Under the pieces are notes generated by a model. That model saw only the letters and a list, made by a program, of their open reading frames with translations. It had not been told where the DNA came from and made no database searches. A stretch of 64,000 bases of DNA from Desarmillaria ectypa (lineage: Eukaryota > Basidiomycota > Agaricomycetes > Agaricales > Physalacriaceae), in contig JAUDYN010000003.1 in the NCBI GenBank assembly GCA_030407005.1, positions 3,348,001 through 3,412,000 on the forward strand, written 5' to 3'. How positions within the stretch are numbered: position 1 is the first letter of the stretch; each line of letters starts with the position of its first letter. Below are positions 1 to 43,921 of this stretch, piece by piece. Both the position numbers and the translations under genes were made by a program.

Positions 1-2406
1 ATATATGCTCGCCATAAGACGAACCAAGGACATCACAGTTGGGCTTGTCTGAATGGTTTAGATACCTCGTTTCGTTCCCTCGGCGTGCGGCATCCAAGGT
101 TAGTGACGAGTTCAGCTCAAAGTTATAATTGAGCCCTGTGTACTTGTTGAGGATATTGGACCTCTGAGAGCTTTCCTCCGAGCTAAGATTCCGGATCTCG
201 CCAACGTACTCTGAAGGGCAAAAGTGTGTGATTTAAAAATCTACTCGGAAGCGGAGCCATTAGACCTACCGCCGATGTAGGTCCAGGCTCTCAATTCCCT
301 TATCGCAAAAGCACCGAGACCGTACTTGGCTGGCTTGGTAGGTTGAATTTTGATATTCTAGGGGTCATCAGTAGAACCGGAATGAATACACGTCAAGGAT
401 TCTTACTTTTCTTTGGTTTCTCTGTATCCTCATATTCTGACACTTGTTCTTATGCCTCGCTCCTACGGGAAAGTAAAAATAGGTAGAAATGCTTTCTCAC
501 TGGCACGCCGGCTGACCTCTGAGGTAATCAATTAGTACGCATGAAATAGTGCCAGGAAGCAGAGCAGGCCTGACCGGGCATCACATTTGACACACAACTC
601 AGGATCGCATTCCCTGCCTGCCTCAATACAAGGGCAGTCAGCTGTCAAGCAGTGATCCATGACTAGTTCATGGGAACATTTACAACCCTTTCTTCGACGG
701 GGACCTTTGGTTGATGAGACCTGCTTTTGATATTCTTCGAAGTGGGATTTATCTTACATTTCAAGCTGCAACGACAGTTCCGCTGGCAATGGTGAGATTT
801 CAGGTGACATTGGCATTCAGAAGTTTGGTCGCATGGTCCGCTATGTGAACATGGAGGAAGGCTAAGCACCCATTCAGAGATATGAACAAGTTATCAGGGG
901 AGGGCGGCACGTACGGCGTAAATTTGCAAGCACTCCCGTCATCCACTTGGAATCGCTGTTAAAGACCGCATACATATATATGAAAAGGATCGCTTGCCGA
1001 AAACTAGAGGCACATGTCGACGCCTTTCCTCGAGGATTTGCTCTTTCAGGATTTTCTCGTCGGGAAACATTCTTGTCCGGTAAATGAATACCTTTGGAGA
1101 GTTAGCAGCATCTTATAACGAATCGGAAGCCAACCTCTAGACACGGTTTGCGGCAGATGACTGCAAGGGCACAAGGTGACATGTCGGCATCAACCTTGAG
1201 AACGCTCTCGAGGAATTCTACATCGTCAGGATCATTCCAATGTACACCTTCCTGTTTCAAGTTCAGACTTGCATGAGAGGCGCTGATATGCAGAAAGGCA
1301 CTATGTACCATTACTCCGTCCTGTGTTTCGTCAAAACTTCGAAAGCAAAGCTCGCCGCAGGGTTCCCCATCCTTTAGCTTGAAGCCTGCTTTAGTAAGTG
1401 TAGGCTTGGAGACTTCGAATGGAGGCACAGCGTCTATGTACTCAAGGTTACTAATAGAGAAGGTAAAATGCACTAGTATCACTCACAGTTATGTACCCTG
1501 CAGTTCATGACAAGGCAATTGATGTGCGAGCAGAATCGTGAACTAGAAAGATTGATGCTATGATAAATATCGTCTTTATCAGACAACCTCTCCAGACCAA
1601 GGGTAGGGAGATCGGTCAGGGCGGTACCCGGCCAAAATAGGATATCTCTAAACGAGGGGGGTGGTTAGGTGATTTCGGGATGAAACTCAAGTCAGACCTT
1701 TGAGACGCCTCCCGGAGAAGGCCGGAAGGACCTGAGGCTCCAACTTTATTATGGAGGATTCCAAGGGTATCTATGGTATAGAGAGAAAGTCTCAGGTCGC
1801 CGTAATGAAGTCGTCTCGCCACTTCAAGTTCAATGACATCAACTGAATATAAATCAATCAGAGGTAAAGGTATTCTCGAGACAGATGTCCATACATACAA
1901 TCAGGGTCTTTGAAATCTTCTGTCTGCCATGCAAAATTTCGAAACGGTTTCAAGTGTTCTGGATTCAAAAACTTCTCTAGCGGAAAGGCTTCATCGTCCG
2001 CGTAAGGAACGAAACGAAGCACCTCATCAGAATTGAAAGAAGTGGATCCTCCAGCATTCCTCGAGTCCGGGGTGCACATTTCGTATTTCAATGGATGCTG
2101 AAACTCGAGGGCGATCCGCGTTTGAATTTCAACACACGGAACTTTATAACGATCTCGAATCGATCTGTCGGGATCGAACGACCGTATCAGGAAACTCTGA
2201 TCGTCGGTATCATCGTCTTCATCCATCACGGAAGATAACTGGTCGTCGACCTTGAAAAAATCATCATCCCATCCTTCACTGTCGTCCGATTCCGCATCGG
2301 CAGCGAGGTACTGAATGTAGGTGCGAGTATCGTCTTGCTCCCAAGCGTAAAACTCGTCAAAAACTCGTTTATAGACGCTCAGAGCGGCATCGAGGCGGTC
2401 GTCCAT
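1..2406 (-). CDS. E(z)/EZH2-like histone H3K27 methyltransferase, C-terminus cut by window edge
   Basis: Predicted catalytic subunit of a Polycomb (PRC2-like) complex that methylates histone H3 Lys27 in the nucleus. Read right to left: an acidic N-terminal part (about 2406-1905), a Cys-rich stretch with a C..C...C..H pattern (about 1560-1490), a block ending SPCALAVICRKPC (about 1110-1250), a Cys-rich CXC/pre-SET part beginning CSHSGPCDQTSECQC (about 740-860) and continuing CECDPELC-like Cys pairs (about 560-700), then the SET domain with YGLGAFAIREL, YVGEIRN and the diagnostic RYLNHSDKPNC (NHS motif) near the left edge. At least seven short introns. I place the start at 2406 (MDDRLDAALS) because the paralog at 32878 begins MDIDRDAALS; an in-frame ATG also exists at 2460. 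The end of SET lies outside the window. SET and CXC order and motifs make the family call firm; target and complex are inferred from the family. Confidence 0.85.
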
Positions 2407-3503: not shown

Positions 3504-4834
3504 CTATCTGGTACCGGCCTCTACGTCCTGGTTTGACGCAGAAACGGGTTTATATATGTCAGATTCATTGGAAATCGTAGGGATGGCGCTCGTCTCAGCC
3601 GTCCACCGGGAGCAGGACGACAAGTGATTCAATGGAACGACATTACTGGGTCCACTCCTTTGGTAAGATGCTCGTCTGAATTGCATTGATGATGTATTGA
3701 GGTCTGTGCTTTTACTCCAAGCCCTTCCACTGACAACCCTCATTATGATAAGCAAAGGTGCAATTCCCTGTACACCCATTAATAAAGAAGAGTTGGATGT
3801 AACTCAGACGAGTGACGAACCTGTATTTGACCCAGAGGTGGAAGTAATATGTTCTGAACCCAACTGTCACGAGCATAAGTGATCAAAAATGCTAGTGCCC
3901 ATGCAGAATACAGCGAAGCCGACTCGACCAGGATCGCAACGATAGATGCGTAGTGTGTTCCGTGACTGGAACCTATAATCGCTTTAACTTGTCTGCGTAT
4001 TACGAGAAGTCGGATGATGATCAAGCAGGTAAAAATGATGTTGAGGGACACGGATAGCGTCCAGTACGCGATACCGAAGCGGATGGTCGAATGAGCCCAA
4101 AAGCTCTCCTCAGCTTGGGAGAGGGAAACGAGAAGGCCGACAGAGGTACCTGCAGACCGAAGGTTCAGCACTTGAGTAAAAGCCCCGAGAATTCCTGACG
4201 AACCTATTCCGGCCAAAAAAATGATAGCGGGAACAATGGCAACCCAGATACTGCGGTTATATATGATGAAAAATCGATACAGCTGTGACCACGACAAGTT
4301 CAGTATGCATTTGATCCGTCAGCTGTAAGCACGTACGACAAGGCCATCGGCAAACCAGCCCAAAGAGGTATAACTGTTACAAGCGTCACCATAGCGCCAT
4401 ATGTATCATAATGAAAACGACAGACCAGGTGAAGCACATTAGATTTATTGGTGTTGCGTAAAAGTCGATAGTAAAAGCGTTGGGACCGCCAGGGTAATTC
4501 CGGTAATCGATGTATGTCATTTGAGTGAATTTCTGGTTTCCTCCAACCCCTACAGTTGCTAGTGCTAAAACCGTGGTGACATATATCCATAACCACCATT
4601 GCGTCGTTCCCCGCCGTGCACGCATAGATAAAAGACCGGAATAACATTGGATGGCCATAGTGAAGAGAATCCCTAGGTCTCGGTCACATATGATTGGCTA
4701 ATTGACGGAGAAACTGCTTTACCGTAAGCAACTAAGGAAAGCGCCATGCCATTAAGATTGGACCGCTCCACCCATAAATCAGCCGTCGATTCTCCGGCGG
4801 GCGCGTAAGACGGCTCAAGGCGGGGACCCGTCAT
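3504..4834 (-). CDS. Seven-TM membrane protein, agaric RNYPGGPNAF family (copy 1)
   Basis: Multi-pass membrane protein of unknown function. Start at 4834 (MTGPRLEPSYAPAGEST) matches the start of the paralog at 24299. Exons encode several hydrophobic helices (for example WWLWIYVTTVLALATVGVGG, SIWVAIVPAIIFLAGIG, IAYWTLSVSLNIIFTCLIII, YASIVAILVESASLYSAWAL) and the family signature TYIDYRNYPGGPNAFT near 4480-4520, followed by a polar cytosolic tail ending VEAGTR. The overall plan resembles G-protein-coupled-receptor-like proteins that are abundant in Agaricomycetes. Its copy lies beside the second RiPP locus, so it may belong to the duplicated unit; a role in sensing or export of the peptide is only a guess. 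At least four introns. Confidence 0.75.
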
Positions 4835-6077: not shown

Positions 6078-6759
6078 TCAGCTTTCTGACGGTCGCTCCG
6101 AATTTCGACTCGTCGTAGCATTCAAGTTTCTTTCCATCTCCTCGTATACTTTTGACCAGTCTTTGCAGACATGTGTTGCCCCCACTCGCTTGATTTCGTA
6201 GTTTCGAGTTAACATATCCGCCGGCTCGAGCGTAAGGTCGGGATTGCAGAGAATCATTTGTCGGAGGTACGTGAGACAGTGCTGCATGTGCCCTCGCATT
6301 CCTGCATCATGGTGCCCCTCCATGGCCAACCGTATTGTTCGCAAACAATGTAGCTGATGCCACATTGATAGTGCAAACCGCCTTTTCTCCTCACCCAGGC
6401 GTAGATACCCAAAACCGTACGCCGCGGAAGACGCCCACTCCTCGCGGTCGTCAAGTCCTGAAATCCCGTAGTGTCGACTCTCCTCCATCGTGAGGAGCAC
6501 GTCAGGAATGTCGAGTGGCAAAAGTTCTGGGAAGTCATTATCTATGAAGGCTTCGACATGTCCTAGGTCAAGGCATTCCTCTGCGACATACAAATGGATG
6601 CTTACTGTAGGTTTCATTATTAGAACTCTTTTCTATGTCAATCATCTCGAAAATATGAGTCGAGACGCTGTGAAAGAGCGTGGTTGTCGAGAAAAGAAGA
6701 ATAAAGGCGCTGACTGCGAACATAGCCATGCATCTCCGCCTTTGCGACTGCAACATCAT
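6078..6759 (-). CDS. UstYa/DUF3328-family oxidase, type A (RiPP locus 1)
   Basis: Probable RiPP-tailoring oxidase of the UstYa family, which in ascomycete ustiloxin-type pathways oxidises or cyclises the core peptide in the secretory route. Exon 1 6606-6759 and exon 2 6078-6562 give 212 residues. The N-terminus is a short basic stretch (QSQRRR) followed by one membrane helix (AMFAVSAFILLFSTTTLFHS), so a type II membrane protein with a lumenal domain. The lumenal domain carries both family HxxHC motifs: WHQLHCL and HMQHCLTYLRQMILC, followed by NPDLTLEP and a late HVCKDW. Closest relative in the window is 19506-20182. It is divergent from the type B gene at 7190 across a 430-bp shared upstream region. 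The exact reaction is unknown. Confidence 0.88.
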
Positions 6760-7189
6760 GGATGTAGGTTCTCATTCGAAGATCCTGGAGCTCAATGGTA
6801 AATATTAATCAAATCGATCAAAACCCGTGTTGAATCTTAACAGATCCAATAATAGGGCCTGATTACGGCCCTTAGCATGCCAGTCGTTCCAGCAAGACCT
6901 GTATTCTGATGTTAACCTGTTCGCCAGGATTCACTATATCAGGAAATTGGTTTAATTCCTTTCGTTGTCTCGACCACAAAATATTGACACAATGCTTCCA
7001 CCGCAGCGAACATTGAGATGCCCAGTCTACTGCACGTCGACAACGCGGTCAAGAACCGAAAGGAAGCAAACGAAGTGGCAGAGGAATTTTTATGACATAT
7101 CAAATATAAGCCGCTGAGTGAGGAGTCTTGGCTAACCTTTCAAACTTGCCTTCGTACTTATTCCATTCTTCGACTCTCGACCGGTAGTC
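6760..7189. promoter_or_regulatory. Shared divergent upstream region of UstYa A1/B1
   Basis: A 430-bp stretch separates the two start codons of the divergent oxidase pair and should contain both promoters. The same arrangement (356 bp) occurs at 20183-20538. I could not pick out a shared motif by eye. Confidence 0.45.
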
Positions 7190-7827
7190 ATGCGGGGTCA
7201 GTACAAAGCGTTAATCGCTATCATACCAGCATCTGTCTGCGGGTATCTTTTGATGAGAGGTGCCTTTGCGACATCTCAGCAACCTGATATCTCAGCAGAT
7301 ACCTGTAAGCCATCATTTCCTTCATTCAGTGCGATGAATGTTGAACAGGGTCACCAGGGAAAGTTTTGACCGGCTCTGTTGCTGTTTGGGACATCGGTCC
7401 TCTTCCATCCGTCATTATGGATCTCGAGAACACAGTCAATTACCAGCTGAACTCAACAGCGTATAATAATGCGCAATGGTCAGCTTTAGCACCGGGCGGA
7501 GGAATTGTCTATCTCGGCCCCAATCGCACCCCATACCTTCCATCCTTCTTCCACCAACTTCGTTGTCTAGATATTATTCGATTGTTCTATGTCGCTCAAG
7601 AGCAGGACGTGGACAACCAGGATGCCAAGGAAGCTGCGGCGGCTAGACACTGTCTAAATTACCTTCGTCAGATGCTCTTCTGTCGCTCTGATCTCAATCT
7701 CGAAAGCGTCATTTCAGGCGACCTTGATCATCATGCTGTTGCCGGCCGTCGTACGCAAACCTGTCGGGATTGGAGGGCTGTCTATGAAGCATTGGAAAAG
7801 AATTCGGCAATTAAGGGAAGCGTGTAG
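7190..7827 (+). CDS. UstYa/DUF3328-family protein, type B with altered His motifs (RiPP locus 1)
   Basis: Second UstYa-like protein of the locus. Exon 1 7190-7304, intron 7305-7348, exon 2 7349-7827, 197 residues. A short cytosolic start (MRGQYKA) is followed by a membrane helix (LIAIIPASVCGYLLM), then a lumenal domain with SVAVWDIGPLP, GGGIVYLGPNRTPYLPSFFHQLRCL and ARHCLNYLRQMLFCRSDLNLES and a late TCRDWRAVYE. In place of the family HxxHC motifs it has HQLRC and a second motif in which the first His is Ala (AARHC). The same changes occur in the copy at 20539, so they are not random decay. It may be a non-catalytic or differently active partner of the type A protein; UstYa and UstYb are both needed in ustiloxin biosynthesis, which fits a paired role. 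Confidence 0.87.
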
Positions 7828-8259
7828 CATGTACTAGACAGGCAATAACGAGAGAAGAGCGCCCACAATTCGTCTCGTTCTTTTCTTGAACCCACGCCGC
7901 AATAATATTTGACTTCATGATTGTCAGTTTATCCTACAGTTATGAAAAGTGAAATAGATGTGTGAGTTTCTGCATATTCTTCTCGCGGTATTGACACGCG
8001 GTCCTCCTTTTTTTAGAATCCTTCATTGCGTCGCGATCGACAAGGTAAATTTTGTGATTGCTTAAATAATTTGACAGTCCGGGAGGCCGATACCTAGTAT
8101 TCGACTTCCATAGATATGGATACCACAACCTCGGTGGCAACATACGTACTGGCAGGCGCTTCTTAAGACGATTGCCCAACGAATGCGGTCTAATAATAAT
8201 ATCCCGGAAAGTCATTCATTACTCGGATATACCATTTTTATGTTACCGAAATATCCCTA

Positions 8260-8275
8260 AGGAAAGGATAAAAGG
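8260..8275 (+). promoter_or_regulatory. 16-bp element shared by both precursor promoters
   Basis: The sequence AGGAAAGGATAAAAGG lies 79 bp before the precursor 1 start codon and recurs exactly at 21595-21610, 31 bp before the precursor 2 start. GATAAAAG is TATA-like, so it could be the core promoter element plus a flanking binding site. Confidence 0.5.
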
Positions 8276-8354
8276 TGTATATTATACCCAGTCAAATAAC
8301 TCATACACTACTCTATAACACAACTACTTGTTACTCTTCTCATTACTTAGCAAC

Positions 8355-9080
8355 ATGAAACTGTCCTTGATCAATGTCATCTTGTTTGCTGCTTTTGTAC
8401 ATGCTGTGCCTGGTATGTTTACAGTTTAACGATGAACCACGACGCTGACATAGTTTTCTTAGTACCCAGTAAGCAGAACACGTAGATTGAGTCTCTGTCC
8501 GAACTGACAAAACTCTATTGTATTACAGGCGTTGACGTTCCTGCCTCGATGGAAGGGCTCACCCCAGCATCCCCTGACACTGCCTTTAGACGAAGTCAGT
8601 GACCCAAATGTTCTTCAAAGACTTACTTATCATTCATCATAGGCGTTGACGTTCCCGCCTCTATGGAAGGGCTCACCGGGGCATCCCCCGACACTGCTTT
8701 TAGACGTGGTCAGAGCGGCCTAAATTTGGAATCCTGCGCTTTGACTAACTGACTGCTTCTTGATCATAGGCGTTGACGTCCCTACCTCGATGGAAGGACT
8801 CGCGGGAGAAACCCCAGATGTTGCATTCAAGCGAGGTGAATGCCCAAAATTGGAAACGAGTATTGGAGCTCAGGGCTGACGGACACTGTATCACAGGTGT
8901 CGATGTCCCCGCCTCAATGGAAGGACTTACGGGTGCCTCTCCAGAGACTGCTTTCAAACGAAGTCAGCTACCTAATTTTGGCAATTGTGTTTTCCGAGGG
9001 ACTGAAGTACTGTTGTAGGTATTGATGTACCCACTTCAATGGAAGGACTCGCCGGGGAAAACCCGGATACTGCCTTCTAG
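8355..9080 (+). CDS. Secreted Kex2-processed repeat RiPP precursor 1 (five units)
   Basis: Predicted peptide precursor of a UstYa-type RiPP. Seven exons: 8355-8412, 8454-8468, 8529-8594, 8643-8708, 8770-8835, 8897-8962 and 9019-9080, giving 132 residues. Residues 1-19 (MKLSLINVILFAAFVHAVP) are a clear signal peptide. They are followed by five units of the form VDVPASMEGLTGASPDTAF, each preceded by Ser or Gly; four units end in RR or KR and the fifth ends at a stop codon. Kex2-type cleavage after the dibasic sites would release peptides of about 20 residues. Every inner unit is exactly one 66-nt exon with phase-1 introns of 48-61 bp. Retaining any of the introns between units brings in an in-frame stop. 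Upstream neighbours are two UstYa-type genes. The first acceptor could alternatively be at 8462. No similarity outside the window could be tested. Confidence 0.85.
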
Positions 9081-19505: not shown

Positions 19506-20182
19506 TCACGGAGCACCTTGGATATCCTGCATCTTTCCACGTATAGTATCGTTATAATTTTGTTCCATGGCATTGTATACTTTTGACCAATCTTTACAGA
19601 CGTGTGTAGCGCCCATTCGTTTGATCTCGTAGTTCCGAGTGAGCACATCCGCCGGCTCAAGCGTCAGGTCGGGATTACAGAGGATCATCTGCCGGAGGTA
19701 TGTGAGACAGTGCTGCATATGCCCTTGAACGCCCTCATCGTGATCTCCGTCCAGGGCCATCCGCATCACCCGCAAGCAATGGAGCTGATGCCACATTGAT
19801 AGCGCAAAGCGTCTTTGCTCTTGGCCCAAGCGCAGGTATCCAAACCCGTACGTTGCAGTGGTCGCCCACTCTTCACCGTCCTCAGGTCCTGAAATCCCAT
19901 AATGTGAGCTTTCCTCCATCGTCATAAGCACATCGGGAAGGTCGAGCGGCCAGTGCTCCGGAAAGTCATTGTCTCTGAAGGCTTTCGAGACGTACGAATT
20001 AAGGAAATCAGTCGGTGCCAAAACAGTGGTTACTCACAATACATTTCCTCGCCCGGCCCGTTTAGTTCTCTGTGTGTGATAGTAGAGATGGTGTTCACAA
20101 ATGTTGCGACCGACAGTGCGAGTATGAAGATACCCGACGCCAACATGGCTATGGTCCTCCGTCGAATGTGCCTCTGTAGCAT
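19506..20182 (-). CDS. UstYa/DUF3328-family oxidase, type A (RiPP locus 2)
   Basis: Paralog of 6078-6759. Exon 1 20038-20182 and exon 2 19506-19981 give 206 residues. It starts MLQRHIRRRTIAM with the membrane helix LASGIFILALSVATFVNT, then SFRDNDFPEHWPLDLPDVLM, HYGISGPEDGEEWATTATYGFGYLRLG and both HxxHC motifs (WHQLHCLRVMRM and HMQHCLTYLRQMILC), NPDLTLEPADV and THVCKDWSKVY. The intron sits at nearly the same place as in copy 1. It should be a type II membrane protein of the secretory pathway acting on precursor 2. It is divergent from the type B gene at 20539. Confidence 0.88.
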
Positions 20183-20538
20183 CTGGTAGACAATCTAGAA
20201 AGGCTTAGTGGGACGACCTTTGCTGCAAGAATATCGTGCTGAGTTCCATCCATAGAACTAATTATAGAGCGGATGATTCCTTGTGACACCAATATTTTTG
20301 TTCCTGCTGGTCAGCCCGGCCTCATCGCAAGGCCGTCGCAGTGATGCTCGTCTTGAAACCCCGTGCATCGAGAAAGCGGTGTTAGCATCGAAGTTTCTAG
20401 TTCCGCATTTGCTCTAGCATGTTTTTGCTAGCTCCAAGAATTTGTGGATTTCATGGTCGCTTTACCGCGGATATGCAAAGTTCGGATCTCAGTTAAGTTG
20501 GACTGAATTTCCTGAAACCCTCCCTTCAGCGTCTTCAC
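20183..20538. promoter_or_regulatory. Shared divergent upstream region of UstYa A2/B2
   Basis: A 356-bp gap between the two start codons mirrors 6760-7189. It should hold both promoters. No shared box recognised by eye. Confidence 0.45.
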
Positions 20539-21225
20539 ATGGACAATCAGTACCGGAAAGCAACATTTGCTATCCTGCTAGTAATCATTGGCTCGTATCT
20601 TTTGATGAGGGGCACACTCCCCACAGTCCGACATCGTAATAGTCCAGAAGAACGCTGTGAGCCGTTCATTCCTTTGTTACCCGTTCAAGTTATTAACCTT
20701 TCATCAGGGAAATTTATGACGGACTCCGTCGCTGTATGGGACATCGGTCCACTTCCGCTTGTTCTGATGGATGTTGAGGATACGGTCAATTACCAGCTCA
20801 ACTCAACGGACTACAGTAATGCACAATGGTCGGCCCTTGCTCCAGGCGGAGGGATCATCTACCTCGGTCCTGACCGCACCCCCTACCTTCCGTCCTTTTT
20901 CCATCAGCTTCGTTGCCTAGACATCCTTCGATCAGTGTATATTGCTCAAGAGGCAGACATGGACAAGCAAGACGTCAGGGAAGCAGCAGTGGCTAGACAT
21001 TGTCTGAACTACCTTCGACAGATGCTATTCTGTCGCTCCGATTTGAACCTCGAGAGTGTTGTCTCAATAGAACACGGCCATCACGCCGTTGGTAGACGAC
21101 GTACACAAACATGTCAGGATTGGAGAGTGGTGTACGAAGAGCTTGAAAGAAACCAAGGCCATCACTTAGAGCGAAGTATACGCAGTTGGCATTTACCACA
21201 GAATAATGTGACAATTAAGCTTTAG
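20539..21225 (+). CDS. UstYa/DUF3328-family protein, type B with altered His motifs (RiPP locus 2)
   Basis: Paralog of 7190-7827. Start MDNQYRKATFAILLVIIGSYLLM gives the membrane helix. The lumenal domain has SVAVWDIGPLP, NYQLNSTDYSNAQWSALAPG, RTPYLPSFFHQLRCL and ARHCLNYLRQMLFCRSDLNLES and a late TCQDWRVVYEEL. As in copy 1, HQLRC replaces HQLHC and the first His of the second motif is missing. The frame is open throughout (228 residues), but a GT...AG segment at 20657-20707 matches the intron of copy 1 in place and phase. It is 51 bp, a multiple of three, so both the spliced (211 residues) and unspliced forms would be readable. I expect the spliced form. Confidence 0.87.
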   Translation: MDNQYRKATFAILLVIIGSYLLMRGTLPTVRHRNSPEERCEPFIPLLPVQVINLSSGKFMTDSVAVWDIGPLPLVLMDVEDTVNYQLNSTDYSNAQWSALAPGGGIIYLGPDRTPYLPSFFHQLRCLDILRSVYIAQEADMDKQDVREAAVARHCLNYLRQMLFCRSDLNLESVVSIEHGHHAVGRRRTQTCQDWRVVYEELERNQGHHLERSIRSWHLPQNNVTIKL

Positions 21226-21594
21226 AGGTACCTAGTAAAATCGTATATTGAATCAGACATGACATCGGCTTGAAACACGGTATCTTGCAACCCCCGCGAT
21301 ATCTTGCACTGTCACAGCATTCATGACACCATAATCTCAGACTCAGACGGACCAACTAGCCCCGTCGCTAGCCCTTGCGACGAAAAATAAGCACATTCCG
21401 ACGGGAACAGGGTCACATGACTGTTCGGCGTTAGATTGTGCACTTTCGTGAAAGCGACGGTTATACGAAACCCGCTAAACCAGGAATCACGGGCTGCGGT
21501 GGGTTGCTCTTGCCGCATGAAACGCTATTAGATCGCCTTTTTTGCGCGAACGGGGAAAATTAACCATTGATAACAGTAACTGGATACGCCGTAC

Positions 21595-21610
21595 AGGAAA
21601 GGATAAAAGG
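21595..21610 (+). promoter_or_regulatory. 16-bp element shared by both precursor promoters (copy 2)
   Basis: AGGAAAGGATAAAAGG, identical to 8260-8275, lies 31 bp before the precursor 2 start codon. The surrounding upstream sequence of the two genes is otherwise different, so conservation of this stretch suggests function. Confidence 0.5.
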
Positions 21611-21641
21611 CAACCCGCTTCCACTAGGACTCATCTATCTC

Positions 21642-21999
21642 ATGAAGATGCAACTGAATTTCATCGTAATTCTCTTATCCGTTGTGTTCGTTCTGGCTGG
21701 ACCTGGTGAGTCCTAATTGTTCAGAGTTGTAGTAGTAGTAGTTCAGAACTGACATAACAGCATTTAAAGTACCAAGTGAATTGAACAGACGAATGCCAAC
21801 AGCTCAGCCACGCGTTGACGAACGTTTCATTGGATCAAGGAACTCGGCCGCGATGCCCTTGCCATTGAAACGAGAAATTGATAGTAAATTCTGAGTCCCG
21901 TGTAAAATGAACTGTTCGCTCACAACACTCGTTTTAGTGGATGTACCTGCTGCGATGGCAAAGTTGAGTGATGGAGCGATAGCATACTCTTTCAAGTAG
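21642..21999 (+). CDS. Secreted RiPP precursor 2 (diverged, one homologous unit)
   Basis: Exons 21642-21705, 21761-21883 and 21938-21999 give 82 residues. Residues 1-21 (MKMQLNFIVILLSVVFVLAGP) form a signal peptide whose first intron has the same place and phase as in precursor 1. Dibasic sites follow: RR after VPSELN and KR after NSAAMPLPL. The last exon is 62 nt like that of precursor 1 and encodes DVPAAMAKLSDGAIAYSFK, recognisably the DVPASMEGL unit. The middle block (PTAQPRVDERFIGSRNSAAM) is unlike precursor 1. Unlike precursor 1 cores, the last unit has a Tyr. It sits just behind the UstYa pair at 19506-21225. The 3' end could extend: a weak unit-like SPDIAL occurs at 22085-22102. Confidence 0.7.
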
Positions 22000-23002
22000 A
22001 GCCAAGTTAAGAAACTTGGAAGCATTTTTGTGGTGAGTCTGTGATAGTAGTGGATTAATTCTGGATACCAACAAGGTCGTCTTTAGTCCAGATATTGCCT
22101 TGACTTGCCGCCTCTACAGTTGATTGTCAGAAAAGTAAAGATTAGTCTCGTTTATGCTGGGTCCTTTCGTTATATTCTAATATACAGTCTAAGTAAATGG
22201 AACCTCAACGATAGACCCTGTTCGTCAAATTAAATCACGCTCACCCAATACGGTGGAATCAATAAACGAGCAAATACGGTATGGACTTCAGCGGAAGTCC
22301 CGGGGCCGGGAAGCGACCTAAAAATTGGCAGCAAGCCGCGGAGAACTGCCTTTGAGTTGGTCAGTGGAAGACGTCCATGCTATGCCATAAGTTAATGCCT
22401 AGAGTGTGCTCTGCCTGACGGTGTACGATATCGATGATGATCTTTGAAATTTGATGACTAAGGGATTGCTGCAGTGCCGCGGTAGGTAGTTTCTCACAGT
22501 TTTGATTCGGTCCGACCTAAAAATAGGGGTGTGTCAGGTCCGACGTTGGTTAAGGGCTCAGAAATGTGTCCCATGTTCTCTGGCAGTCGTTGAGCACTTT
22601 GAAAGCAGCCAGCGAGAAGAGGTGGTTAAAGTAGAATACCGGGAAATATTCAAGAAAATAACGATAGCTTCATCTAAGCCATGTTGGCTCTGATATAGGC
22701 ACAGAGAGGTAGGCTTGCATACCACGCCGACAGCCCGCTGGGTTGTTGCAAAAATAGAAATTGGCGTATGTTCTACACAACCTGCTTAAATTACTTATCA
22801 ACATCGTCCCACTGACAGCGTATAATTAGCGGTTTGGTAACAGTATGACTCTATTTCTTCTTTCGTCCACACAGCATTGATTAAATCGGTTCGGCACAGT
22901 GCGTAACTTCTCTTCTGATACAGTGTCACCTGTTTGAAAAGGATTTTTAGCATTAAACTGTGAACAAAACTCGAGCTGGTATACCGAAGCTTCGAGCGCA
23001 CA
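22000..23002. other. Intergenic, about 1 kb, possible decayed precursor units
   Basis: Downstream of precursor 2. A short frame at 22085-22102 reads SPDIAL, resembling the SPDTAF end of precursor 1 units, without a usable exon around it. Otherwise no motif-bearing ORF, RNA gene or repeat recognised. Confidence 0.4.
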
Positions 23003-24299
23003 CTATTCATGGAGCGGTGTCAATCTACCAGCATCTCTTCTGGAATTCTCAGTCATAAGGCTTGTTGGAGTCGAAGCCCGAGAAGCAAGGAACTCCTTCA
23101 AAGGGATTTCACAATGCTCCGCTTCAGTGCGCCCGTAGAGCGACATGGCTCTATATTGCGAAGGTGCTACGGTGGTCGAATTCCAGGCTCTTCCTCTGAT
23201 AACCCTCAGAATTATGAGAAGCGGTGCGATTCCCTACGTGCCTGTCCATTAGGAGTTAACCCTTGGGAAAACGATAGACTACAGACCTCTATCTGACCGA
23301 GCGGTGGAAGCAGTATGTTCTGAACAGGATTGTTACGGGCATATGTGATGAGGAATACCAGAGCCCACAGTGAGTACAACACAGCCGATTCAACCATGAT
23401 CGCGACTACGGATGTGTAATGCGATCCGTGGTTGGGTCCTAGGACTGCATTGGCTCGCTGACGGATGAGGAGAAGGCGGGTAGCAATCAGGCAGGTAAAA
23501 ACGATGTTGAGGCCTACAGATATAGACCAAAAGGCGATTCCAAGACGCACAGACGTCGTAGCCCAAAAGCTATCCTGGGATCGAGCGATTGAGATAGCTA
23601 AACCCAAGCCAGAGCCTGGAAGGGGATTATCAACGTTACGAAAATCGAGAGAAGGAAAGCCAATACCTATGTCCCCAAGATAGATGATAGCAAGAGCTAT
23701 GACTGCCCAGAGATTACGGTCGTATATGATAAAGAATCGGTACAGCTGGACGTATCAAGAAGCGTTGAATAAACATGGACGGTTAGACACAAAGGCTGGC
23801 TTACAACAAGCCCGTCGGCAAGCCAACCAAGGACGATATATCTGCGGAATACCATCATTTAAAAAATGTCATAAAAAAAGAAAAAGAAAAAATGACGGAC
23901 GCGATAAAGGACATCAGATTAGATGTCGTCGCGTAGAAGAAGAGCGTAAAAGCGTTGGGACCGCCAGGATAATTACGATAATTGATATAAGTCATTTGAA
24001 TGAACATTTGGTTCCCTGAAACGCCAATAGTCGCCAGGACCAAAACCGCACTGACGTAGATCCACATCCACCACTGTCTTTCCTGTGTTCGGAGAGCAAA
24101 GAGACCTTGGAAACATTGTAGGACCATAGTGAGCAGGATACCTGTGCATTATGAGGAACTAATGAAGCTTGAATAGAGGTGAACTACCGTAAGCAATCAA
24201 GGCAAGCGCCATTCCGTTCAAATTCGTTTTTTCTACCCAGAGATCATGCGTCGATTCTCCAGGAGGCGCATACGCGGGGTTCAGAGGGGGTCCAGTCAT
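23003..24299 (-). CDS. Seven-TM membrane protein, agaric RNYPGGPNAF family (copy 2)
   Basis: Paralog of 3504-4834. Start MTGPPLNPAYAPPGESTHDLW at 24299, then helices WWMWIYVSAVLVLATIGVSG, the signature TYINYRNYPGGPNAFTLFFY (about 23935-23995), FFIIYDRNLWAVIALAIIYL, LGIAFWSISVGLNIVFTCLI and YTSVVAIMVESAVLYSLWAL, and a polar tail ending RRDAGRLTPLHE at 23003. Intron positions follow copy 1. Molecular role unknown. It lies on the far side of precursor 2, whereas copy 1 lies on the oxidase side of locus 1, so the unit was rearranged after duplication. Confidence 0.75.
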
Positions 24300-24984: not shown

Positions 24985-25500
24985 TTACTCTTCACCTCCC
25001 TTCCTTGCCCAGGCAACGGCGGCAGTCCATTCGTTATTCGTAACAAGACCCGCCTGCTCCGCCTTCTTCAAGACAGTGATTATCCAATCTTGACAGTTCC
25101 ACTCCCCATTGGGCTCCTCCACCCTAACCCCCGCCGCGATGCTCTCCAGCTCTTGTCGTTGGGAGAGAGTCATCGTCGTGACGGCCTTACGAGGCTTGTT
25201 CCTATGACTATTATACGTCTCCACCTGGGTGATGGCGCCCCAGTTGGTAAGATGGTTATACCCAATCTCTTGAACGACCTCCAGAAGTCGACGGTAGATG
25301 TGCTTTACGCCACCTTTCTCCTCCGTCTTTACCACCCAAAAGAGCTTCCAGTGAAGATCTCGTAGATCAGTCACGATAGGAATACGAGTGACCATTATTT
25401 GGACCGTGAGGTCGGTGTCAGGATCTGGATACCAGCGTTTAAGATCGATCGGTGGTAAGCGACCAGAGGGACGGCCCATCTCGTTGGGAAGGATAGGCAT
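24985..25500 (-). CDS. Small conserved protein of unknown function (copy 1)
   Basis: Single-exon ORF of 171 residues, from MPILPNEMGRPSGRLPPIDL to WARKGGEE, clearly paralogous to the 174-residue ORF at 27481-28005. No signal peptide or membrane helix. Conserved points shared by the copies are LHWKLFWVVK-like (LHWKL.W), YNHLTNWGAITQVE, LSQRQELE and EEPNGEWNCQDWI, then TVLKKAEQAGLV. The HW and NC(Q)DW pieces, far apart, resemble the His/Cys layout of NlpC/P60-like folds, but this is only a resemblance. The next gene in the ancestral order was an APH-like kinase, now a relic at 26240-26396. Confidence 0.75.
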   Translation of the reverse strand: MPILPNEMGRPSGRLPPIDLKRWYPDPDTDLTVQIMVTRIPIVTDLRDLHWKLFWVVKTEEKGGVKHIYRRLLEVVQEIGYNHLTNWGAITQVETYNSHRNKPRKAVTTMTLSQRQELESIAAGVRVEEPNGEWNCQDWIITVLKKAEQAGLVTNNEWTAAVAWARKGGEE

Positions 25501-26239
25501 ATTACCTACAAGTTATCGCATCGTCATCTCATCGCAGAGTCGACAAGAAAAATACCTGTTGAGAGTTCGAAAGAGTAGTTGGGCACGACTGATAGTGCTG
25601 TTCAATCACATGGACACCATTGATATCCAGCGAGGCAGACTTATACAGACAAGAAATTCAAAGTCAGCCAGAAACCCTAGACGGAAATTGTCACTTCATT
25701 CTGCGGACATAAACGAAGACGAATCAAATCTTACCTTTTTATATTCAGGTCATCAAGAATCGGCCGACTGTCATGTAATAGATTCTCTCTGGCTCAAGAG
25801 TAAGGCCGAACTGCGGCTTATCTGGCATCCTACCAAGGCCGGATCTCACACAACAAGTTACTGTCCCAGAATCGCGGCCACTCCGAGTCCAAAACAACAC
25901 CTTACAGTCCAAAATAGCCGTCGTGATTTGCCGACAATTACATTCATCACTCAGGACAGCATGTAGGCCCTGGACCTGGCCGTTAGAGAACAGAAGCATT
26001 GTATCGTGTCCAGACGAACATACTAGCAGTTACGGAAGTCCAAAGCCGTATGGATAGACCCTTAGCTCCTTTATGACTAGTAGAATTTCCGGAAACGCTG
26101 GCTCGGGGTATGTCGTACAGCAAGACCTTATGACCAAGAACACAGTGATTCAATACCCGAGGCATTGGTACGAAATAGGTTATCCGAGCAAATCCCCGGA
26201 CGGTCAACGCGTCAGAATCTGCCACAAAAGAGCTTCGGC
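25501..26239. other. Intergenic, about 740 bp
   Basis: Upstream of the small conserved protein. ORFs up to 192 codons on the plus strand (25388-25966) are mostly antisense to the adjacent gene or lack motifs. No gene supported. Confidence 0.4.
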
Positions 26240-26396
26240 CCTCGACTTTATTCTTGACAGCGTATCCGTGATGAAAGTCCCAGTGAACACGAGGAATGAA
26301 AATAGTGGTCTAATAGTGTTGCGAATACGCACTCCAGGCGTGTAGAACACCGAGAGATAAAACTTGAGACAGTCGCGTGTCATCGAGATGAACATT
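26240..26396 (-). pseudogene. Relic of an APH-like kinase gene
   Basis: On the minus strand this stretch matches part of the intact kinase at 28273-29205. HLDDTR (near 26385), then after a damaged gap PRVHW (near 26290), follow the order of YLDDTR and IPRVHW in the intact gene. At DNA level CCCAGTGAACACGAGGAAT versus CCCAGTGGACACGAGGAAT is nearly identical. The frame is broken by a stop and no catalytic loop is left. With the small protein at 24985 it forms a decayed copy of the 27481-29205 gene pair. Confidence 0.65.
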
Positions 26397-27480
26397 GTCC
26401 TCGTGATCGAAAGACAAGTTCCTTGTAAGAGTTTTGGTTTGTGAAAGCTGAAAATTTTGTCAGAATCCAGATCTTAACGGCAAAGATATATCGAAGACAA
26501 CTTTGGGAGGCACGTGCCATGAAAAACTGGTGTTCTTCAGATGTTTTAGCATTGAATAGAGGGGTAAAGGAGGACGACAGTGATAAATGGAGACTTGAAG
26601 CTTTGAGGAAAGATAGAAACTTGTCACTGCCGATAGTACTAAAAACGCCGCATCTAGCAAGCAGCATCTGGCGAACAAATATTTGAAGTTCCGCTCGCAG
26701 GAAAGCGGACCGAATTCTGGAATAAACACCGAGCGTCCCAAGACTCCTGTTTTTACTGATTGTTAAGATTACGAGTAGACGGATATTTGAGGGGAAGCCT
26801 GATTCGTAGATTCTTAGCGAGAATATCAGAAAGTGGAGCCCGATCCCCAAGGGGGATCCGTGAGTGTGTTAATTAGCGCAAGGTAGTGCTTCGAGAAGCA
26901 AATAGATGGGCAAGCACCTAACTAATCAAGGATGCTTAGTTGTTCACATGAGCTGGTGGAAGTTTGAAGCTTAGCTAATTGTATGGCACATTGGCATATA
27001 CGGTCTTCTACTAGACATGCGAGAAATCTGGAGATGAAAGAAATATCGAGCAATTTTTATAACTACGTCAGAAAGGAAAGAAACGAAGGGAAGTGAAGGC
27101 TTGGCTTAGGCGATTTGGTCATCATGTATATTATTATTATCACTGATCTTTGATCATCTTTCCCAGCTTTTGACGGATTGACGTACTATTGAGTTCATCC
27201 GCCGGAAGGAATGCTATATCAGGGAAATGAGATGTTCTGGGATGTAATAATATACCTGGACGGGCTGGACAGACCCTAGAGTCCCACCTGAATGAGGACT
27301 GGAAGCATCATCGATGTATATAACGTCCGAGTGAAAAAAGAAAGACATCATGTCAATTTTTAATGTCAGAGCAATGGATCCGGGTGCTGAAAGTTCACAT
27401 CCTGCTACTACGCTGATTATTCAATGGGAAACGTCGAAACGTCGAGGGGGGGGAAAGACGTACAGAAATGAATCAACGTG
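26397..27480. other. Intergenic, about 1.1 kb
   Basis: A 156-codon minus-strand ORF (26380-26850) begins upstream of the kinase relic but has no resemblance to the intact kinase that I can see. No other feature recognised. Confidence 0.4.
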
Positions 27481-28005
27481 TTATTCTTCTCCTCCATTCA
27501 TTGCCCAAGTGACGGCGGCCGTCCACTCGTTCTTGGTGACGAGGCCTGCCTGCTCCGCCTTCTGAAGCACGGTTACAATCCAGTCTTGGCAATTCCACAC
27601 CCCATTCGGCTCCTCAATCCTGACCTGCGATGCTAGCTTCTCCAGCTCTTTTCGTTGGGCGAGGCTCATCGTCGCGACCACCTTGCGTGGGTTGAACCTT
27701 TTGCTGCTGACAGTCTCTACCTGCGTGACTGCGCCCCAGTTTGTCAGGTGGTCATACCCGACCTCTTGTACCACCTCTAGCCGCCGATGAAAGATCTGAA
27801 TATCCCCATCTTTCTCTACTATTTTCACCGCCCACACCAATTTCCAGTGTAAATCTCGCGGATCGGTGAAGCCGGACATACGTGTAACCATGATGTGAAC
27901 CGGGACTTTGGTGTCAGGATCAGGGTTCCAATAATTGAGGTCGATCGGTGGCAGACGACCAAAAGGACGTCCCATCTCGTTAGGCAGAACAGAATTTCGT
28001 GTCAT
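27481..28005 (-). CDS. Small conserved protein of unknown function (copy 2)
   Basis: Single-exon ORF of 174 residues, start MTRNSVLPNEMGRPFGRLPP, end WAMNGGEE. It is similar over its full length to 24985-25500, with LHWKLVWAVK, YDHLTNWGAVTQVE, EEPNGVWNCQDWIVTVLQKAEQ and WTAAVTWA kept. Preservation of both reading frames despite many DNA differences suggests that both copies are or were under selection. No targeting signal. It lies 268 bp downstream of the kinase gene on the same strand. Confidence 0.78.
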   Translation of the reverse strand: MTRNSVLPNEMGRPFGRLPPIDLNYWNPDPDTKVPVHIMVTRMSGFTDPRDLHWKLVWAVKIVEKDGDIQIFHRRLEVVQEVGYDHLTNWGAVTQVETVSSKRFNPRKVVATMSLAQRKELEKLASQVRIEEPNGVWNCQDWIVTVLQKAEQAGLVTKNEWTAAVTWAMNGGEE

Positions 28006-28272
28006 CCTTGTGCGTTATTACAGTATCGGGTGATGGTAGCACAGATTAGAAGTACCTGCATGGAGTGGGAGAGAAGGTGCTGATACTATCCCACCTACTT
28101 AACAGCGTGAACATGCACGTCATCATTTCGAACCCGTGGTAACCCCATGGATGGTAATTCACGAATCGTCTTCACGGCTAGGGCGGTACAATTACAGGTA
28201 GAGATCCTGGACTAATACGTTGGTTGTCAGACACTTGCGCCGAACAGCTTTAGATAAAAACTACCGTATCGC

Positions 28273-40408: not shown

Positions 40409-40518
40409 GATATTAAGATACCAAGGGAACACACCCAGGAGATCTACGCCTCCGGCTACAACATTTCCACAGATGGTTTGGAAGCCGACCTGCTCGATGC
40501 AAACTCAGCATACGGAAC
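40409..40518. repeat. Dispersed direct repeat R1
   Basis: About 110 bp that match 41556-41665 closely, sharing GGAGATCTACGCCTCC and CTACAACATTTCCACA, with TTTGGAAGCC further on. A second matching block (40675-40711 versus 41683-41722) lies downstream in the same order. Origin unknown; probably part of the local DUF6534 duplication. Confidence 0.6.
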
Positions 40519-40819
40519 GTAGGAGGTGGCCAGAGCAGATGAGTCAACGTGTGGATATTTAGGGCAGGTAGATCGAGAGTTTGTCCGATTGTCTTAGCTT
40601 GTTCATCCCCATCGAGCCAAGTCATCTCTCGGACTATACGACGGGTTCCAACGGAAGCAGTGTCAAGACAAAGGATTCTGCTGTTAAAGCAAAGCCGCGT
40701 GAAAGGAAAAACACGCCAGCCCGCGGCTCGATTTGTCGCTGGATACCAGCAGGATACTGAACTCGGATATAAAGTTAAGTATGTTCTACCACGGCATGAA
40801 TCATAAATAGAATAACCAC

Positions 40820-41090
40820 AGGAGTTCACTATAAATTACAACGAATCGACTGACCAGTAGCTTGAGGAAAGAATGATCATGCCGATGGTGACTAAATAAA
40901 ATAACTATTAGCGAGGATTATGCCGCGACCCAAGACCTCAGCGAACTAGACGAAATATTGGAAGCTATGGGCATGAAGTTATAGGTCAAGCATAGTAAAC
41001 TCTGTCAAGAGAATACACATGTTTGGATGCAAGTGAAACCCCACAGAGCGGCGGAAAGAACGACAGTGACAGTCAGACGTAAGAAAAATG
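40820..41090 (-). pseudogene. Relic of DUF6534 membrane-protein gene
   Basis: Minus strand reads VVLSAALWGFTCIQT (about 41035-41080), matching VVITAALWGLTCVQT of the gene at 35423-37169, and further on DHSFLKLLV (about 40855-40885), matching DHFSLKLLV. Both DNA blocks align with the intact copy in order, but the rest of the gene is missing. Confidence 0.6.
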
Positions 41091-41555
41091 CCGAAACCCA
41101 TCAGAAAATTTGTAATTGTTTTATATGGGTTGGGTAAAGATTGGGCCGTCGGTGAGTCCAGTCTATGCAGTTGCAAGCGACTCGCACACTTGCCTCTGTA
41201 CGCAAACGCGTGTAATTCTGCAGGGTCGAAAGAGATCAGTATTCTGTTGAAAGAGATTGGATTTGTTGGACTCATCGGAAACGTATACAAAGCAAGAATG
41301 AATAGGGCAAGTTGAAACAGCGCATCATCCCATCGTTTCAATGAAAAAGTGGATGTAAATGTGCGTTTCAAGACATGGCTTACGGCGATAGACCCGATAG
41401 TTTGGCGTGCGCATATATAGACGTGGATCAAGATATATAAGCATGGCATTACGGGAACTTAAAAGTGACTTGTTGTACGCGCTGCCAGCAATCTGGCATT
41501 GACGTCAAGACAAGAACGAGATGTATGGAATAAAAGTGATTACAAATCCTCGAAG

Positions 41556-41665
41556 GATATTATTATACCTGGGGAACACATCTGGGAGATCTACGCCTCC
41601 AGCTACAACATTTCCACAATAGTTTTGGAAGCCAGACTGCTTGGTACAAAATCAATATACGGAAA
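41556..41665. repeat. Dispersed direct repeat R2
   Basis: Second copy of the repeat at 40409-40518, same orientation, about 1.1 kb apart. See R1 for the shared blocks. Confidence 0.6.
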
Positions 41666-42938: not shown

Positions 42939-43921
42939 ATGAAAATTTCATCCAGTTCATCGCTCCTCTTTGCTACTCTCGCCATTTCGTCGTCGTCGTC
43001 GAGTCTCGCTGCGCCTACTGGTGACACTTCCCAGGCTGAAACTGGCTTCCCAAATTCCTCGAGCAACCACCATATAGCGTCGCGGCGTGGCTCCTTCAAT
43101 ATGGCTAGGTCAGACGCGAAAAGTAGTACGTAGTCTTCGCATATCTGATCATATGCGCGTTTTTTTAATTCATCTCCGCAGCAAGAACCTCTGTGCAGAA
43201 GCGCGACATTATCGGTGCCATCATTTGTCCTGTCGAAGGCCTCGTTCCTCTCGTTGGTTCAATTCTCAATCCACTTCTCGGAAATCCCTGTTCATCCCAG
43301 AGTGCGGCATCAGCAGAGGCAGTGGAGGGATTGGCCACCAATGAGTCGTCTTCGTCAAGCGCTTCGGATGAGCCAGCTCAGGGCGCATCTTCAACGCCAA
43401 CACTGCCAGCGCAGCCGCCTAACACGCCAAAGTCATCTGCAGCCGATACAATGCCCTCGTCTTCGCCCTCGCCGTCTTCTCCGCCCTCCCAGCGCCGGGA
43501 TGTTCCTACCAGTCTTCGTGGACATTCGTTGCCGCTAAGGGCTGTTTCCGCAGATGCCGTCAAAAAGACATCGGATTCCGCTTCGTCTACATCTCCTACG
43601 ACAGAGCCATCGAAGGCGGGAGCTGACCCTGCTGAAGGCCACTCGGCTGGATCGTCGGCTGGCGTACCCACCGCTGAGACTGTAGAAACGCCGGTCAACC
43701 CTCCGGCCGACCTCCCAGTCAGCCCTTTGGAAGCGCCGGTCAAGCCTTCGGAAGCGCCAGTCAGCCCTCCAGCCGGCCTTCCAGTCAACCATTCGGCGCT
43801 GTCAGGTCAGGTACCAGTACAGGAACCACTAGGAGGCAAAGTCCCGAACGTACCGAACGCACCAGTTGGAACGCCGGGTCCTGAGCCATCAAAGCGATTC
43901 AGTGGTGAGCCTGAGTGGTGA
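42939..43921 (+). CDS. Secreted Ser/Pro-rich protein with a conserved hydrophobic block
   Basis: Unrecognised family. Exons 42939-43125 and 43182-43921 give 308 residues. A signal peptide (MKISSSSSLLFATLAI, then SSSSSSLAAP) is followed by a short polar part, a dibasic KR site, and the hydrophobic block DIIGAIICPVEGLVPLVGSI leading to LNPLLG. The remainder is rich in Ser, Ala and Pro, with imperfect 11-12-residue repeats in the middle (PVNPPADLPVSP, then PVKPSEAPVSPPAG; about 43690-43790) and further dibasic sites (QRR, SKR). Probably secreted and O-glycosylated. Kex2 could cut it several times, but its parts are too unlike each other to call it a repeat precursor. Neighbours give no clue. Confidence 0.68.

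Follow-up and report, generated by a model that had tools for sequence, protein, structure and literature searches.

A five-unit Kex2-repeat precursor beside a divergent UstYa pair and a linked 7TM-like gene in Desarmillaria ectypa

Introduction

The cores of the known dikaritins, a group including ustiloxin, phomopsin and asperipin-2a, carry an oxidative cross-link through Tyr. To our knowledge, asperipin-2a needs no tyrosinase.

The DUF3328 proteins, to which UstYa belongs, were recently established as a binuclear copper enzyme family; its member CctR forms copper-dependent homodimers in which each monomer holds two coppers, and replacing the conserved His and Cys of its motif by alanine leads to loss of activity (PMC12435403). 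Three further sources are cited here from excerpts. In those of Umemura 2020 (PMC7329392), a tyrosinase is named for ustiloxins and phomopsins only, and a strong adjacency is reported across fungi between DUF3328 genes and genes for KEPs (secreted proteins with repeated units parted by KR/RR), DUF3328 counts being highest at the KEP-adjoining position. A DUF3328 gene lay within 15 genes of 103 of 1680 basidiomycete KEPs, and it was proposed that the cyclization factor of Basidiomycota may have a different motif, or that cyclization hardly occurs there. The combination of KEP and DUF3328 genes in Basidiomycota is already known and tabulated in that work, and that part alone is therefore not new. 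According to the excerpts of Le Marquer 2019 (PMC6339444), hormone-like KEPs were chosen by their Ste13 dipeptides, a signature absent from toxin-releasing precursors and epichloecyclins; basidiomycete KEPs carrying it were proposed as hormones, and the GPCRs perceiving them were left open. In Pleurotus, the excerpted text reports developmental expression in fruiting bodies for 6 of 16 UstYa-like genes, all six with allele-specific expression, a kind of variation that its authors would rather attribute to relaxed constraint (PMC8893723).

Here, a stretch of 64,000 nucleotides (the window) on contig C23 of the 40.6-Mb genome of the honey-mushroom relative Desarmillaria ectypa was analysed computationally, following an earlier note on the same DNA. 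The second locus, the copper ligands lost in one UstYa partner and the linked 7TM-like gene go beyond that note. A literature search on Armillaria with KEX2 and RiPP returned PMC7329392 only.

Results

Precursor gene and its units

Locus 1 comprises a five-unit secreted-peptide precursor (P1), a divergent UstYa pair directly upstream and a 7TM-like gene (Table 1). Both the five-unit repeat precursor with signal peptide and the divergent UstYa/DUF3328 pair ahead of it, as described in the earlier note, were borne out, the former by an intact spliced frame of 129 aa, the latter by two genes exceeding the PF11807 cut-off. The product consists of the signal peptide MKLSLINVILFAAFVHA (judged from sequence), VPVP and five 22-residue units, one per exon, and thereby has the make-up of a KEP; units 1 and 2 end in RR, units 3 and 4 in KR, and unit 5 in F followed by the stop codon. 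The peptide predicted from the units is S/G-VDVPASMEGLTGASPDTAF, with a core of 19 residues that contains no Tyr, Trp, His or Cys, so that the site of a modification is not obvious.

Table 1. Positions of the genes and promoter elements of both loci within the window.
Feature	Position	Strand	Details
7TM-like membrane protein, candidate receptor	3504..4834	-	exon borders approximate
UstYa C (H-type)	6078..6759	-	exons 6759-6606, 6550-6078; 208 aa; complete HQLHC...HMQHC copper motif
UstYa B (R-type)	7190..7827	+	exons 7190-7304, 7349-7827; 197 aa; HQLRC...ARHC
Promoter element GGAAAGGATAAAAGG	8261..8275	+	94 bases upstream of P1 ATG
Precursor 1 (P1)	8355..9080	+	7 exons (8355-8412, 8463-8468, 8529-8594, 8643-8708, 8770-8835, 8897-8962, 9019-9080), GT-AG introns, TAG 9078-9080; signal peptide, five 22-aa units; basis: splicing, third-position bias
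UstYa C2 (H-type paralogue)	19506..20182	-	exons 20182-20038, 19982-19506; 206 aa; HQLHC...HMQHC
UstYa B2 (R-type paralogue)	20539..21225	+	211 aa; HQLRC...ARHC; sequence identical to P0007
Promoter element GGAAAGGATAAAAGG, second copy	21596..21610	+	46 bases upstream of P2 ATG
Precursor 2 (P2)	21642..21999	+	3 exons; signal peptide followed by a KR site, EID and MDVPAAMAKLSDGAIAYSFK-stop
Second 7TM-like gene (paralogue)	23003..24299	-	exon borders approximate

The units had been called near-identical, which holds for the protein and not for the DNA, where pairwise identity is 39-50 of 57 bases. More than half of the differences fall in third positions in 9 of the 10 pairs, and all 13 bases (of 57) that distinguish units 2 and 4 are third codon positions. 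Across pairs, dN was 0.02-0.22 and dS 0.43 to 1.89 (undefined through saturation in two of the ten); for unit 5 against the other four, the values were 0.10-0.22 and 1.3-1.9. The units are old copies under purifying selection. The array was not reported by Tandem Repeats Finder. A 26-base unit-start pattern matched five places in the window with <=3 mismatches, all in P1 (100 shuffles: mean 0.02, largest 1), and with <=2 mismatches only these five places across the 40.6-Mb genome (reversed-pattern control: 1).

The NCBI model of the gene (P0001, DFS33DRAFT_1451841, 222 aa) differs from our seven-exon model, and both are predicted from the DNA. It has four units and an N-terminal extension, lacks the micro-exon, runs into the intron behind unit 4 and translates the DNA of unit 5 in a different frame. 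A search of 5.8 billion proteins gave two relatives of P1 at E <= 1, this NCBI model itself and the 95-aa P0002 with one recognisable unit, DVPASMEGLTGASPETAFKR.

An asymmetric UstYa pair

All four UstYa proteins of the window (C, B, C2 and B2) exceed the PF11807 cut-off, and two HxxHC motifs are present in C and C2 only. In UstYa B, the second histidine is replaced by Arg and the third is lost, leaving two of the four copper histidines. The same variant was found in every R-type protein retrieved: 72/72 retain His1, Cys1, His4 and Cys2, and 0/72 have His2 or His3. All six motif residues occur in 111 of 120 H-type homologues among the matches listed (223 found). In at least 14 of 30 named species, the contig carrying an H-type gene and that carrying an R-type gene agree in species and length; for the remaining 16, no shared contig was seen, with 120 of the 223 H-type matches listed. 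Both UstYa pairs are under purifying selection (YN00 dN/dS 0.14 and 0.11). An in-frame stop in UstYa B suggested a frameshift; this was discarded, since splicing out a 44-base GT-AG intron brings the gene back into frame and an intron occupies the same place in the paralogue.

In structure models, B and C each have their two copper motifs on successive helices, the model of C being poor (pLDDT 58.7). Among solved structures, the R-type protein had no match and the H-type a single one (E 0.09) regarded as chance; Foldseek of the R-type model returned nothing at E <= 0.001. No paper joining DUF3328 and a heterodimer was retrieved by a literature search that did not cover key DUF3328 work, e.g., ApnU and AprY.

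A paralogous locus with a diverged precursor

A second, paralogous locus was found at 19.5-24.3 kb, with a diverged precursor and the gene order C-B-precursor of locus 1. P2 has one recognisable unit and no repeat; this unit holds one Tyr and has 7/19 positions in common with the P1 unit, the final F among them, and exon 2 of the gene begins with TACCAA, similar to the P1 micro-exon. The promoter 15-mer GGAAAGGATAAAAGG has two exact matches in the genome, upstream of P1 and P2 only.

P1 and P2 searched against their own genome gave no match beyond their own exons, and no P1-like family was detected when seven other UstYa regions were scanned for multi-unit Kex2 repeats; region C12a contained two weak repeat pairs (scores 34 and 29; shuffles up to 30). 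A signal-peptide scan pointed to small precursors at C12b, C27 and C28b, which remain candidates because the background of the scan is high (52 hits per 110 kb). Positive selection on the core encoded by the candidate ORFs at C12 was considered and not upheld: the ungapped estimate was dN 1.20 and dS 0.82, and the gapped one, dN 0.38-0.43 and dS 0.28-0.29, covers only 14 codons, too little for a claim of selection.

Linkage of 7TM-like and UstYa genes

The two 7TM-like genes of the window are 55-57% identical over the main exon. Hydropathy gives eight peaks, one possibly intronic, and the helix count is accordingly uncertain; the protein had no Pfam family over the cut-off and no match among solved structures. 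Six of its eight closest genomic relatives lie about 2.5 kb or less from a UstYa gene (midpoints), with 0.024 of the eight expected within 5 kb by chance, a binomial comparison that overstates independence since the matches are paralogues. The link is found again at loci that have diverged, with 29-41% identity among the close relatives beyond the window. The two other relatives, at C3:303 kb and C28:2841 kb (26 kb away), lie apart from the listed UstYa genes, and for the UstYa pair at C1:1697 kb the 16 kb examined contained no 7TM match. P450 and permease genes also lie near locus 1, and their relatives served as controls: no UstYa gene was found within 10 kb of permease relatives at 8 other places or of P450 relatives at 3. 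Locus 1 belongs to a small family of UstYa/7TM loci in D. ectypa, at least two of them with related precursors. DUF3328 was not found alongside seven-transmembrane/GPCR among the literature matches listed, in a weak search that says little.

Dikaritin and pheromone features

Locus 1 encodes the class-defining UstYa/DUF3328 enzyme of dikaritins, and P1 has the putative signal peptide and Kex2-separated repeats of their precursors. The tyrosinase found in ustiloxin and phomopsin clusters is missing: none of the 13 tyrosinase (PF00264) matches of the genome is on C23, and a tyrosinase was discarded as partner enzyme. The idea that this combination defines a dikaritin is not supported in that form, as a cross-link cannot be read from sequence alone and the contig has no tyrosinase match. 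The modified secreted peptide previously proposed is sustained as regards a Kex2-type precursor beside two genuine PF11807 genes, an arrangement duplicated at 19.5-22.0 kb, and not as regards the cross-link.

The XA/XP Ste13 dipeptides that follow each basic site in alpha-pheromone-like KEPs are absent from P1, whose units begin with S/G-VDVP or S-IDVP behind KR/RR, VPVP occurring only at the start behind the signal peptide. In the light of the excerpts of Le Marquer 2019 (PMC6339444), this speaks against a signal.

Discussion

Locus 1 is best read, with moderate confidence, as the source of a secreted peptide that undergoes oxidative modification and for which the 7TM-like protein is a candidate receptor. 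P1 would release five copies of a peptide of about 20 residues in vivo through its signal peptide and Kex2-type sites, and the two-gene UstYa module would carry out the oxidative modification of this peptide within the secretory pathway. UstYa C, with the complete binuclear-copper motif, is the likely catalytic subunit, and UstYa B, a conserved variant minus two copper histidines, most likely a partner subunit, possibly in a heterodimer, or a single-copper form. For the 7TM-like protein beside them, the most likely role is to perceive the peptide or to confer tolerance to it. The recurring arrangement may represent a modified peptide signal carrying its own receptor.

Other explanations have to be weighed. 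It is rather unlikely that the locus makes an ordinary dikaritin-like RiPP, a toxin or antimicrobial whose core is cross-linked or hydroxylated by the UstYa pair, with the 7TM-like protein as a passenger or self-protection. UstYa is indeed the dikaritin enzyme class, KEP/DUF3328 adjacency is strong across fungi in the excerpts of PMC7329392, P450 and permease genes are nearby, and P1 lacks Ste13 dipeptides, like the toxin precursors in those of PMC6339444; however, the 7TM link is repeated across diverged loci, which is not so for the P450 or the permease, and the P1 core has no Tyr, nor C23 a tyrosinase match. A linear, unmodified Kex2-repeat peptide acting as hormone or effector, with the UstYa enzymes acting on another substrate, appears improbable: the conserved gene order at the second locus despite its diverged precursor, and the peak of DUF3328 counts directly beside KEP genes (excerpts of PMC7329392), argue against it, even though the residues usually cross-linked are absent from the core and, by the counts excerpted from the same source, most basidiomycete KEPs (1680 less 103) are without a DUF3328 gene at a distance of up to 15 genes. 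Very little probability is given to a partly wrong P1 model, in which the repeat gene would be shorter, or a copy in decay, and its true product not five-unit. The four units and different ends of the NCBI model, a micro-exon of just 6 bases and the lack of a basic site in unit 5 would fit such an error, but unit 5 combines low dN with high dS against the other four and its exon is preceded by a GT-AG intron, while the TACCAA start of P2 exon 2 resembles the P1 micro-exon.

Extending the reading of a modified peptide with a candidate receptor, we raise, as a tentative and rather doubtful proposal, that mushroom-forming fungi have multiple peptide-signalling modules, each combining a secreted peptide that evolves fast with a UstYa enzyme of two subunits and a linked receptor from an undescribed 7TM family. 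The enzyme modifying the peptide would then consist of a full binuclear-copper subunit and a single-copper or copper-free partner. If true, this would be a RiPP pathway for self-communication, not toxin production, with a UstYa heterodimer; expression of UstYa-like genes in Pleurotus fruiting bodies, as excerpted from PMC8893723, would fit a developmental role. The linked 7TM-like family would provide concrete receptor candidates for the question left open in the excerpts of Le Marquer 2019 (PMC6339444), here for a repeat peptide without the Ste13 signature. Likewise, the asymmetric H-type/R-type pair makes the 'different motif' option in the excerpts of Umemura 2020 (PMC7329392) directly testable, and a natural DUF3328 variant always minus the same two histidines is a probe of the division of labour between the two coppers.

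Compared with ustiloxin, phomopsin and asperipin-2a, locus 1 shares the signal peptide, the Kex2-type repeats and the adjoining UstYa/DUF3328 genes, but it lies in Basidiomycota, encodes a 19-residue core without Tyr and one unit per exon, has no tyrosinase match on its contig, and one UstYa partner lacks half its copper histidines. UstYa C carries the full HxxHC(x)nHxxHC motif of CctR, whereas the B-type retains just His1, His4 and the two Cys, and two different genes are paired where CctR is a homodimer (PMC12435403). As in the basidiomycete KEPs of Umemura 2020, a KEP gene adjoins UstYa genes; in contrast to those described in the excerpts (PMC7329392), P1 has a fifth unit absent from the NCBI annotation, and the locus has an asymmetric UstYa pair with a linked 7TM-like gene. 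With the pheromone-like KEPs in the excerpts of Le Marquer 2019 (PMC6339444), P1 has in common a secreted basidiomycete repeat peptide and a candidate 7TM receptor; it differs from them in lacking Ste13 dipeptides and in the physical linkage of its 7TM-like gene, the receptors there being postulated.

Two related precursor loci in the Desarmillaria ectypa genome

The five-unit precursor gene proposed in the earlier note (P1) was borne out in the 40.6-Mb genome of this agaric of the family Physalacriaceae. The 26-base unit pattern was matched five times in the window, which lies on contig C23, where 100 shuffles averaged 0.02 matches, and the seven exons join in a single frame. Allowing up to two mismatches, no match was found in the whole genome outside the five P1 sites. 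Each unit occupies one exon, those of units 1-4 measuring 66 nt each. The NCBI model of the gene lacks the micro-exon and takes the unit-5 DNA in a different frame. A 95-residue protein on other contigs (P0002) contains the unit DVPASMEGLTGASPETAFKR.

Pairwise DNA identity among the units was 39-50 of 57 bases, with dN of 0.02-0.22 and dS of 0.43-1.89 (undefined in two of the ten pairs); every one of the 13 bases that distinguish unit 2 from unit 4 falls at a third codon position, and the two peptides differ by a single conservative substitution (D/E). The inter-unit introns are also related, since all six pairs outscored all 200 shuffles, by a small margin in three. Duplication of a unit made up of exon plus intron is therefore the most likely origin of the array, and purifying selection has maintained the peptide. 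Judging by their sequences, the repeats are old, constrained copies.

A paralogous locus, absent from the earlier note, was found downstream. Between 19.5 and 22.0 kb it repeats the first arrangement: an H-type UstYa gene (-), an R-type UstYa gene (+) and a second precursor, P2 (+). In P2, EID and MDVPAAMAKLSDGAIAYSFK-stop come after a KR site; compared by eye, it agrees with P1 units 1, 2 and 4 at D2, V3, P4, A5, M7, L10 and F19, and the distance from the first unit residue to F is 19 residues in both precursors. The promoter 15-mer GGAAAGGATAAAAGG begins 94 bases before the P1 start codon and 46 before that of P2, its only two exact matches in the genome; three more sites appeared at one mismatch, and a reversed-pattern control gave 11 within one mismatch. 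Over the aligned part, the R-type paralogues B and B2 share 70% identity (dN/dS 0.14) and the H-type paralogues C and C2 68% (dN/dS 0.11).

Features of the two loci, of the remaining window and of other contigs (C12, C27, C28) of the same genome
Feature	Location	Strand	Description
Cys-rich stretch	1-900	-	with RYLNHSDKPNC; we take it to resemble a CXC/SET histone methyltransferase
7TM-like gene, first locus	3504-4834	-	multi-helix, flanks the first locus
UstYa C	6078-6759	-	H-type
UstYa B	7190-7827	+	R-type
P1	8355-9080	+	seven exons, one 129-residue frame
Second locus	19506-24299		paralogous UstYa-pair/precursor/7TM-like locus, ~13 kb downstream of first
UstYa C2	19506-20182	-	H-type
UstYa B2	20539-21225	+	R-type
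P2	21642-21999	+	second precursor
7TM-like gene, second locus	23003-24299	-	multi-helix, flanks the second locus
Two similar open frames	24988-28014	-	MGRPSGRLPPIDL... / MGRPFGRLPPIDL...; local duplication
Two stretches, 1.1 kb between	40448-41598	-	similar translations (FRILILYQAVWLPKLLWKCCSWRR / FRMLSLHRAGRLPNHLWKCCSRRR); probably duplicated sequence
Pro/Ser-rich open frame	43169-43918	+	several KR/RR sites; 21-base tandem repeat at 43715-43763
Signal-peptide ORF	C12:523483	-	beside UstYa and 7TM-like genes
Signal-peptide ORF	C12:543924	+	beside UstYa and 7TM-like genes
Signal-peptide ORF	C12:547585	+	beside UstYa and 7TM-like genes
Two similar signal-peptide ORFs	C27:3691895, C27:3693338	+	adjoin R-type UstYa
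Signal-peptide ORF	C28:2809479	-	divergent from K-type UstYa; end, spliced by eye, RRDTCSSL

Asymmetric copper motifs in the UstYa pairs

The copper motif reads HQLHC...HMQHC in C and C2, and HQLRC...ARHC in B and B2. A search with B yielded 72 R-type proteins, 34 of which carried an organism name, representing 30 species, presumably all Agaricomycetes; the 72 proteins were aligned with the best 120 of 223 relatives of C (H-type). His1, Cys1, His4 and Cys2 were kept in all 72 R-type proteins, while the His2 position was occupied by Arg (66 proteins), Lys (4) or Gln (2), and the His3 position was never His (0/72). All six motif residues were present in 111 of the 120 H-type rows, the other nine being gapped, partial or varied. 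Since resemblance to B or to C decided which proteins entered each set, the difference between the sets arises by construction, but the absence of the same two histidines from every aligned R-type member does not.

Of the 30 named species, 14 had H- and R-type genes on a common contig; for R-type genes on contigs below 600 kb the figure was 5 of 13, both counted with the best 120 of 223 H-type relatives. Consecutive locus tags were found in Armillaria gallica (1072638/9), Stygiomarasmius (000607/8) and Tetrapyrgos (006800/1). In D. ectypa, 17 UstYa genes or gene pieces form nine clusters, seven of which comprise two or three genes and pair one Arg/Lys-for-His2 member with at least one His2 member. 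In the R-type partner on C27, His1 and His4 are missing as well, the second motif of the C31 H-type is YVHHC, and the C1 H-type and a single gene at C12:392 kb were seen in part only. The stretch holding the two HxxHC motifs is missing from the annotated relative of C in Desarmillaria tabescens (P0081), through either a gene-model error or a deletion.

Linkage of a 7TM-like gene to UstYa loci

Searching the genome with the main exon of the 7TM-like gene gave 19 matches for one locus and 25 for the other. A UstYa gene lay within about 2.5 kb of six of the eight closest relatives (E <1e-10, the window's two included), with 0.024 expected within 5 kb; leaving out the window's own loci, four of six were near a UstYa gene. 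Among the 14 matches with E up to 1.4e-5, seven lay within 5 kb and eight within 10 kb. The remaining two of the eight closest relatives (C3:303 kb and C28:2841 kb) had no listed UstYa gene within 10 kb. The same held for every relative of two neighbouring control genes, a permease with 8 further sites and a P450 with 3. The 7TM-like protein matched no Pfam family over the cut-off.

Of the three small secreted ORFs on C12, two that lie close to the duplicated 7TM genes are clear paralogues with similar leaders and differing ends (VDCLSAKSEFEERDCP vs SVCVRNGVFEGGGQCP); identical bases number 76/85 in the first exon, 46/54 in the intron and 37/47 aligned in the last exon, where 5 of 14 aligned residues are alike. 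Spliced by eye, the ends of the C27 ORFs show RR or KR sites, after which comes AFLAAEVEP or KFLASEPEP. Because the scan background was high (52 matches in 110 kb), the C12 and C27 ORFs are candidate precursors only.

Discussion

The earlier note had linked the combination of signal peptide, Kex2 sites and UstYa genes to dikaritins, for which it is indeed already known; as a basidiomycete trait it has been counted before, in 103 of 1680 Kex2-processed repeat proteins (PMC7329392). In searches confined to open-licence papers, no report was found of constant His loss in one UstYa partner or of 7TM linkage to UstYa loci.

In the DUF3328 copper enzyme CctR, a dimer with two coppers per monomer, the conserved His and Cys of the motif are needed (PMC12435403). 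The structure model of B (helices 101-120 and 128-147, mean pLDDT 71.8) would allow an antiparallel hairpin of the two motif helices, which, if real, would place His1 opposite His4 and His2 opposite His3. Because the histidines would pair in this way, the R-type would have lost one whole copper site and retained the other. The parts of the locus are compatible with a two-subunit copper enzyme that would modify a secreted peptide.

For the 7TM-like protein, three roles are conceivable: receptor, self-protection, or accessory to the enzyme. The CctR authors postulate an accessory protein supplying electrons or Cu(I) (PMC12435403). The P1 units lack Ste13 dipeptides, which counts against a hormone by the criterion of PMC6339444. 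Among the bolder readings a receptor is nevertheless favoured, doubtful as it is in itself, because the cores have diverged between the two loci while each keeps a linked 7TM-like gene, a pattern like that of ligand-receptor sets.
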